Of a DNA stretch of 39,418 nucleotides, positions 9,268 to 11,327 are shown piece by piece. Under the pieces are notes generated by a model, which ran no database searches, was not told where the DNA came from, and saw nothing but the letters and a program-made list of their open reading frames with translations. This DNA is from Candidatus Thioglobus perditus (GTDB lineage: Bacteria; Pseudomonadota; Gammaproteobacteria; PS1; Pseudothioglobaceae): positions 1 to 39,418 of the forward strand of contig PNQY01000080.1 in the NCBI GenBank assembly GCA_002909145.1, read 5' to 3'. The position numbers and the translations under genes are program-made. Each line of letters starts with the position of its first letter. Positions within the stretch are counted from its first letter, which is position 1.

Positions 9268-9597
9268 TTAAAATGGCAGGTTCATTCCGCCTGGAATTTT
9301 CATACCTCCAGTGGCATCTTTCATTTTTACACTGGAAGTATTAGAGATTTGTTTAACTGCATCATTTACAGCGGTTAGAATTAAATCTTCAAGCATCTCT
9401 TTGTCACTCATAACACTATCATCAATTTTAATGTCAGTAGCATTATGCTCACCAGTAATAGTTATTTCGACAGCGCCACCAGCTGCCTTTCCAGTAGCAG
9501 TCATATTTTTGATTTCTTCTTGTGCCTTTTGCATGTTGTCCTGCATTTCCTGAGCTTTTTTCATCATTCCAGCCATTCCGCCTTTAAACATTTTCAA
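9268..9597 (-). CDS. ybaB: YbaB/EbfC nucleoid-associated protein
   Basis: A 109-residue DNA-binding protein of the YbaB/EbfC family, dimeric and nucleoid-associated. The N-terminus is an amphipathic helix rich in Met, Gln and Lys (GGMAGMMKKAQEMQDNMQ), followed by GAVEITITGEHNATDIKID and the acidic EMLEDLILTAVNDA segment, then a Gly/Met-rich tail (GGMKIPGGMNLPF). Length is standard. Its start overlaps the dnaX end by 14 bases, implying translational coupling, and recR follows, as in most gammaproteobacteria. Confidence 0.96.
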   Translation of the reverse strand: MKMFKGGMAGMMKKAQEMQDNMQKAQEEIKNMTATGKAAGGAVEITITGEHNATDIKIDDSVMSDKEMLEDLILTAVNDAVKQISNTSSVKMKDATGGMKIPGGMNLPF

Positions 9598-11194
9598 CCT
9601 CCTTTATTGATTTAATGTCAACTTTTGTATTAAAAGTTTGTTCTAATTTTTGTACTATTTTATCGCCTAAAAACTGTTTTTGTATTTTGGCAGTTCTTTC
9701 ATTTTGTATTCGCGCTTCTTTTTGTGCTAAAGTTTGAGTTTTCGGCTTGCCTATTTTGATTATTAGATTTAAGTTGGCAAAACTCTTTCTAAGCGTTGAA
9801 AGAATGCTTTTTTGTACATGATTGCTAAGTAAATTGGCAAACTGCTCATCAAGCGTGAGCGTAAGTGTTGATTCGTTAATGTTATCAAATATTGTATTTT
9901 TTATCAACACTTGGGCTCCACCATTGAATATTATGGTTTTACTTAACTCTTCCCATTGTTGTTGATTGCTAATACTAGGCAAACTAGAGACTTCTATTTT
10001 GTTCTTTGTATTTTTACTTGTTTCCTTGTTAGAGGGGGTTATCTTGCCCTTAGGTTTGATTTTTAGAGTTTTTTTTTCCGACTGGACTGTTGTTTGGTTC
10101 TGTTTAGATTGTGTTGCTATTTCACTATGGAATGCAATCATTCTTAGTAGTGTCATTTCAAATCCGATCTGCTCAGATGGTGCTAGGGCCATATCTTTTA
10201 CGCCGTTGATTGCCATTTGATAGAAAATTTGCAGATCTTGATTAGATATATTATTGGATAGAGTTTTTATGTCTTCAGAATCCTGCTCATTGTTTATAAT
10301 TTGAGCAATAGATACTTGATGAAATAAAGAGCTTAAATCTCTAAGTGCATTTGTGAGATTTTCACCTCGATGTGAAAGTTCTTTAATAAAATCTATAACA
10401 GCCGTTGCATCTTGATTAAACAAATGTTTTGCTAGAATGACAATGTCATCATGATGCACTAATCCGAGCATATTTTTAATATCTTTATTGGTAACAGAGC
10501 CGTTACCATAAGAGATGGACTGATCTAATAAACTTAGTGCATCACGCATTGATCCGTTACCGAAATCAGCAATTTGAGCAAGAGCAGATTCTTCATAAGT
10601 TAGTTTTTCCGCATCCATAATAAACTTTAGCTGACCTAGAATTTCATCATGAGTAAGCTTATTTAAGCTGAATTGCAAACAACGCGATAACACTGTAACT
10701 GGAAGTTTTTGTGGATCAGTTGTTGCCAATAGGAATTTAACATGTTCTGGCGGTTCTTCTAAAGTTTTAAGTAGAGCGTTAAAGCTACTTTTAGATAACA
10801 TGTGTACTTCGTCAATAAGATAGATCTTATAACGATTTTTAGTTGGCATATATTGTGCATTTTCTAAAATGTCACGCATGTTATCTACACCAGTGTGTGA
10901 TGCAGCATCAAGCTCAATTAAATCAACCGACTGACCTTTGTCAATTTCAATGCAAGTGGTACATTTTCCACATGGGGTTGAGCTTACACCAGCCTCACAG
11001 TTAATTGATTTAGCAAAGATTCTGGCAATAGTGGTTTTACCAACTCCACGAGTACCAGTAAATAAAAAACCATGATGCAAATTATTGGCATCAAGAGCGT
11101 TAATTAGAGTTTTTTTAGCGTGAGTTTGGCCTACCAATTCGCCAAACGTATGTGGACGATATTTGCGGGCTAGAACTTGATAATGCTCACTCAT
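9584..11194 (-). CDS. dnaX: DNA polymerase III subunits gamma/tau
   Basis: The clamp-loader ATPase that links the polymerase III cores (tau) and opens the beta clamp. A 536-residue full-length tau form, shorter than E. coli tau (643). Walker A GTRGVGKT is at residues 47-54, zinc cysteines at C66, C75, C78 and C81, Walker B YLIDEV at 125-130, and the SRC motif (LSRCLQF) near 170. A run of nine A covers codons 373-376. Slippage in either direction meets a stop within seven codons, so a gamma-like protein of about 380 residues (AAA+ domains only) is likely. The ATG has no Shine-Dalgarno, and only about 21 bases separate it from the 4.5S RNA. Confidence 0.97.
   Translation of the reverse strand: MSEHYQVLARKYRPHTFGELVGQTHAKKTLINALDANNLHHGFLFTGTRGVGKTTIARIFAKSINCEAGVSSTPCGKCTTCIEIDKGQSVDLIELDAASHTGVDNMRDILENAQYMPTKNRYKIYLIDEVHMLSKSSFNALLKTLEEPPEHVKFLLATTDPQKLPVTVLSRCLQFSLNKLTHDEILGQLKFIMDAEKLTYEESALAQIADFGNGSMRDALSLLDQSISYGNGSVTNKDIKNMLGLVHHDDIVILAKHLFNQDATAVIDFIKELSHRGENLTNALRDLSSLFHQVSIAQIINNEQDSEDIKTLSNNISNQDLQIFYQMAINGVKDMALAPSEQIGFEMTLLRMIAFHSEIATQSKQNQTTVQSEKKTLKIKPKGKITPSNKETSKNTKNKIEVSSLPSISNQQQWEELSKTIIFNGGAQVLIKNTIFDNINESTLTLTLDEQFANLLSNHVQKSILSTLRKSFANLNLIIKIGKPKTQTLAQKEARIQNERTAKIQKQFLGDKIVQKLEQTFNTKVDIKSIKEVENV
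10069..10077 (-). promoter_or_regulatory. A9 slippery run in dnaX (candidate frameshift or transcript slippage site)
   Basis: Nine consecutive A on the coding strand, in frame as GAA AAA AAA ACT (codons 373-376). In the -1 frame a TAA follows after six sense codons; in the +1 frame CTC TAA follows at once. Both truncate just after the clamp-loader domain III. Thermus dnaX makes gamma through transcriptional slippage on a run of A, and E. coli through a -1 frameshift at an A-rich heptamer. Confidence 0.5.
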
Positions 11195-11215: not shown

Positions 11216-11327
11216 GTGGCAGCACCAAGAATAACATCCAACACATAAAAAAATTATTACCGTTGCTTCCTTCCGGACCTGGCGGGATTCATAACCATTC
11301 ATTGTAGGAGTACCCTTAGTACTACCA
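11216..11327 (-). ncRNA. ffs: 4.5S signal recognition particle RNA
   Basis: Read on the minus strand, the element contains the universal SRP tip: CAGGTCC, the GGAA tetraloop and GGAAGCA (about 11265-11285). The two ends pair as a long helix: GGTAGTACTAAGGG at the 5' end matches CTTGGTGCTGCC at the 3' end through about 15 pairs including G-U wobbles. The length of about 112 bases matches the small bacterial SRP RNA. It guides Ffh to signal peptides on nascent membrane and secreted proteins. It lies directly upstream of dnaX, a neighbour also seen in other gammaproteobacteria. Ends are set by the pairing and are good to a few bases. Confidence 0.93.

Follow-up and report, generated by a model that had tools for sequence, protein, structure and literature searches.

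The run of nine A residues in the dnaX gene of Candidatus Thioglobus perditus is very probably a programmed transcriptional slippage site similar to that of Thermus thermophilus, yielding a gamma subunit of approximately 42 kDa beside the 60 kDa tau subunit; the slippage with its rate, and likewise the gamma product, are inferred here. The nucleotide-level evidence shows that selection keeps both the run and a stop codon in the +1 frame behind it. Transcriptional slippage in dnaX, best documented in Thermus, would with this be extended to a family of marine bacteria with SUP05/Thioglobus and the symbionts of vent mussels and clams among its members.

The dnaX gene and its predicted short product

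Within the window (the whole stretch of 39,418 nucleotides that was analyzed), dnaX, encoding DNA polymerase III gamma/tau, occupies positions 9,584 to 11,194 of the reverse strand as an open reading frame for a tau of 536 aa with a calculated mass of 60.0 kDa. The product matches the NCBIfam models PRK07994 (648 bits) and TIGR02397 (442 bits). Clamp-loader domains I-III (residues 5-360; 10,115 to 11,182, reverse strand), delimited by phmmer against E. coli DnaX chains and by Pfam, are common to gamma and tau, and the Pol III alpha-binding domain V (residues 409-530; 9,605 to 9,970, reverse strand; PF12170, E 1.8e-7) is found in tau only. The gene therefore holds both the clamp-loader and the tau tail domains, as in dnaX genes of the Thermus type. 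A 4.5S SRP RNA gene (11,223 to 11,318, reverse strand; RF00169, 67.9 bits) lies directly upstream of dnaX, a neighborhood that was seen in all 11 family loci tested.

The candidate slippage run lies at 10,069 to 10,077 on the reverse strand (T9 on the forward strand) and covers codons 373-376 (GAA AAA AAA ACT), as the initial annotation had read it; embedded in it at 10,070 to 10,076 (reverse strand) is an A_AAA_AAA heptamer, a possible -1 ribosomal slippery site. Past the run, the -1 frame reads N-S-K-N-Q-T before a TAA at 10,050 to 10,052 (reverse strand), and the +1 frame reads a single L before a TAA at 10,063 to 10,065 (reverse strand), in agreement with the six codons and one codon originally counted. 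The first of these stops is the predicted end of a gamma of 381 aa and 42.5 kDa translated from an A10-type mRNA, and the second would end a gamma of 376 aa from an A8-type or 377 aa from an A11-type mRNA, the masses calculated from the window sequence being 42.0-42.5 kDa. Both stops were also said to lie just beyond the clamp-loader domains, which the domain limits bear out: domain III spans residues 234-356 (Pfam), the similarity to the E. coli clamp-loader subunit stops at residue 360 (phmmer), and the gamma constructs from E. coli that have been crystallized comprise 368-373 aa. The run thus sits just after the clamp-loader part, and the short product would nearly coincide with the minimal clamp loader. 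The nearness of the two stops was itself considered as evidence and rejected, as an AT-rich gene will commonly have stops this close.

In the proposed mechanism, an all-A:T RNA-DNA hybrid within RNA polymerase would permit the nascent RNA to realign, giving mRNAs with 8, 9, 10, 11 or more A residues. The A9 and A12 mRNAs would be translated into a tau of 536-537 aa comprising the clamp loader and the polymerase-binding tail, and the other A counts would lead into the nearby -1 or +1 stop and to a gamma of 376-381 aa that stops immediately behind domain III.

Long A runs are scarce in the window genome: a pattern search, together with 20 stretches of the genome, returned only about 25 runs of at least nine A on both strands of 1.59 Mb, mostly intergenic, and about six in the sense direction within plausible genes. 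Synonymous-codon resampling predicts about 100 sense coding A9 runs genome-wide, a rough figure scaled from 39 window genes. Baranov et al. read a depletion of nine-A runs in coding DNA as indicating that such runs are prone to slippage (PMC1088944). The earlier proposition that a coding homopolymer of this length is rare unless useful therefore holds as to the rarity, but where the linker is rich in AT and Lys, the presence of a long stretch of A is no strong evidence by itself; its conservation throughout the family is. As a control, the A9 run at the RKKN codons of serS (seryl-tRNA synthetase; L160:433-1740, reverse strand) in the same genome is retained in only 8 of 25 family members. Another A9 run was noted at the N-terminus (MSEKKI) of an OmpR-type response regulator (L170:222-926, forward strand); the small number of homologues retrieved lack it.

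Conservation of the run and of the +1 stop

The window genome (G000) was grouped with species named Thioglobus, Ruthia, Ruthturnera, Vesicomyosocius and Thiodubiliella and with the sulfur-oxidizing symbionts of Bathymodiolus; from these member names we infer that the family is Thioglobaceae (SUP05 clade). Of 83 family genomes searched, 78 gave a dnaX match and 75 a readable linker. The homologous site holds A9 in 60 genomes, A10 in 13 and A12 in one, i.e., at least nine A in 74 of the 75 and in all 11 genera, and it falls at one and the same alignment column in all 67 readable in-frame genes. The initial annotation had named synonymous interruption in relatives as the observation that would speak against its proposal; neither AAG nor GAG occurs inside any run, and the proposal withstands this check.

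Because the sequences are related, genome counts are not independent events, and the run is fairly judged only against the remaining columns within the alignment. At its GAA, AAA and AAA positions, G-ending codons number 0 of 63, 0 of 67 and 0 of 67. Every one of the other 34 conserved Lys/Glu columns in the 67-sequence alignment has them, in 2-56 sequences each, and their share across dnaX overall is 21% for Lys and 31% for Glu. The run columns are therefore the three lowest of 37, which by rank, ignoring relatedness, has a chance of 1 in 7770. The first run codon varies among Glu, Lys and Gln with its A bases retained, the ninth A is kept while its codon varies among Thr, Asn, Ser and Met, and conservation of the linker bases on either side is mostly 30-65%. 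In the Thiodubiliella genus the run remains at least nine A long through changes of codon phase. Collectively, this pattern indicates that the constraint on the run acts on nucleotides and that the length of the run is under selection.

Tau is in frame with the run in 68 of the 74 run-bearing genomes. The A10 forms outside the Thiodubiliella genus preserve the frame, as is expected where the next base has been substituted rather than a base inserted or deleted. Among these 68 genomes, the +1 frame is closed within six codons in every case and the -1 frame within eight codons in 64. At the Leu column after the run, CTA makes up 79% of codons vs. 17% in the gene overall, and CTT or CTC, 34% of Leu codons overall, occur in none of the 47 sequences; the +1 stop is retained in 47 of 47 because this choice of Leu codon avoids CTT and CTC. 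Unlike the distance to the stops, a codon choice that preserves the +1 stop is unusual.

Frame-switched relatives, exceptions and rival explanations

In three related mussel symbionts (G022, G004 and G114), the A9 run stands in another phase such that gamma is what the zero frame encodes (K-K-K-H-L-N-stop), with the tail of tau placed in the -1 frame and free of internal stops. In a tree of the DnaX N-terminal part, these three and their sister G031 are grouped with a support of 1.0 for all four; the three alone have no support as a clade. Their out-of-frame tau tails have dN/dS values of 0.17-0.32 at dS 0.9-1.1, similar to the 0.13-0.28 of the in-frame species of the genus, and the tail is under purifying selection at a dS of about 1. 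Provided that the A counts are correct, tau could be made in these species only via a frame change at the run, and they offer a natural test in which no tau is possible without such a change. The switch could instead reflect an A10 run miscounted as A9; the sequencing platforms argue otherwise for G022, the B. septemdierum symbiont (1,469,434 bp; 454, Sanger, PacBio and Illumina; PMC5486853), and for G114, also from B. septemdierum, which by our assignment was probably assembled as in PMC7473567, from Nanopore reads with Illumina polishing. Coding coverage in the G022 and G004 assemblies is 0.81-0.98 over 19-kb stretches, a measure of quality that does not prove run length. Additionally, a single MAG (G051) carries an A12 run with tau in the +1 frame, the opposite direction, and mixed shift direction among orthologues is a published criterion for transcriptional realignment (PMC3711429). 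The chances are evenly divided for a broader scenario in which slippage in dnaX was kept throughout the history of the family, the roles of the products were switched in one mussel-symbiont lineage by a one-base change that leaves tau to slipped transcripts only, and another species shifts in the opposite direction. Such a switch of arrangement inside a family would be unusual if the A counts are right and needs confirmation at the read level.

A small number of genomes depart from the pattern. The clam symbiont G038 (Ca. Ruthia, Cpac) has lost the run along with part of the linker; as its tau frame is still intact, the short form would be dispensable there, and this natural gamma-minus line bears on the need for gamma. 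In G015, an in-frame TAA stands immediately 5' of an A10 run in an otherwise open tau frame; this counts against slippage, which cannot bypass a stop located 5' of the run, and may be a MAG error. G115, likewise a MAG that may hold errors, has a frame break further on in dnaX. In other families of the class, A9 occurs in the dnaX linker of 1 of 31 genomes (L148, a reduced genome), and among the named outgroup loci besides, one Neisseriaceae (L092, PsAf) has A11; separate, independent origins of the same device are possible for both.

The alternative closest to the E. coli precedent is programmed -1 ribosomal frameshifting, with the run serving merely as a slippery heptamer from which gamma is made. 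An in-frame A_AAA_AAA makes -1 ribosomal slippage possible in the window, and such a shift could also supply the -1-frame tau of the three frame-switched species. We nevertheless regard this explanation as improbable. A heptamer needs seven A and at least nine are retained; the more slippery AAG is absent, the second Lys codon ending in A in 67 of 67 genes, so that the E. coli-type A_AAA_AAG is not present in any of them and A_AAA_AAA is the only form. Tau in the +1 frame of G051 runs counter to a -1 shift, and the conserved +1 stop is of no use to one; as only a +1-type shift needs such a stop, its conservation favors slippage by the polymerase. Stimulatory elements are also not conserved: a Shine-Dalgarno-like match of at least four bases was found upstream in none of 67 of the 74 genomes, the window included, a conserved downstream stem-loop was not found (mean z +1.18, i.e., less structure than the gene average), and the Rfam search gave no frameshift element even at E 10, with only the SRP RNA above threshold. 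The downstream GGG/CCC stem was considered as a stimulator and rejected, being weak and not conserved in the family; the initial annotation had judged it too distant to stimulate strongly. The view taken there, that the polymerase slipping is likelier than a ribosomal frameshift, is accordingly strengthened by the length of the run, the conserved +1 stop, the missing stimulators, the depletion of sense A9 runs and the +1-frame tau of G051.

Two further readings were considered. The run might simply be how an AT-rich genome spells a conserved Glu-Lys-Lys motif, with no recoding; Glu-Lys-Lys are indeed the usual residues at the site, and elsewhere in the gene AAA accounts for 79% of Lys codons and GAA for 69% of Glu codons. 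This explanation is very unlikely, given that G-ending codons are missing at exactly the run columns and present in all 34 comparable ones, that the A bases stay unchanged where the first codon specifies Gln or Lys instead and through the Thr, Asn, Ser and Met variants of the fourth, and that the run persists through changes of phase. Slightly less credible still, and hardly to be entertained, is phase variation at a contingency locus, in which replication slippage would toggle populations between a tau and a gamma state of DnaX. Run lengths of 9, 10 and 12 and phase-switched forms within one genus are what such a locus could produce, but tau is in frame in the great majority of run-bearing genomes, A10 forms outside that genus preserve the frame, and the frame-switched state is grouped in the tree and old (dS about 1) rather than toggling. 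In E. coli the loss of tau is lethal, and the same would be expected here. Transcriptional slippage at the run thus continues to be the preferred reading.

Comparison with known slippage and frameshift systems

According to the descriptions of Larsen et al. 2000 given in PMC1088944 and PMC5009743, the dnaX gene of Thermus thermophilus has a sense A9 run at which transcriptional slippage takes place, and mRNA heterogeneity and the product ratio were shown. As far as these accounts describe it, that gene resembles the one in the window in its sense A9 run, one open tau frame, stops that follow soon in both other frames and a gamma comprising the N-terminal clamp-loader part. The two differ in that the window host belongs to the Gammaproteobacteria, another phylum, in the position of the run (at about 70% of the gene in the window vs. 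seven-eighths in Thermus as described) and in the kind of evidence, slippage in the present family being predicted from genome sequence.

The dnaX gene of E. coli, with its -1 ribosomal frameshift, is the same gene with the same two products, and a slippery A heptamer is present in the window as well; unlike in E. coli, the window lacks A_AAA_AAG, the Shine-Dalgarno stimulator and the downstream stem-loop. E. coli gamma ends near residue 431, whereas the gamma predicted here would end just after domain III.

Reversed dnaX genes consisting of two ORFs have been described in other bacteria, including Chlorobium and relatives, and form a GeneTack cluster (PMC3711429). G022, G004 and G114 are like these in having a zero-frame gamma and a tau reached after a -1 shift at the A run, unlike the window gene, in which the tau frame is open. 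No Thioglobaceae member is named in the main text of PMC3711429 for the terms searched, and our literature search found no paper covering dnaX together with Thioglobus. In contrast to the two-ORF GeneTack set, both arrangements occur inside one family and even one genus. Lastly, A runs are known in the symbiont genes of Buchnera and Blochmannia, dnaX included, where transcription may restore the frame; the dnaX frameshift there is located downstream of the gamma site, in the region found in tau only, and resembles tolerated damage (PMC3017870). The run of the type seen in the window differs from these in being conserved family-wide, free-living members included.
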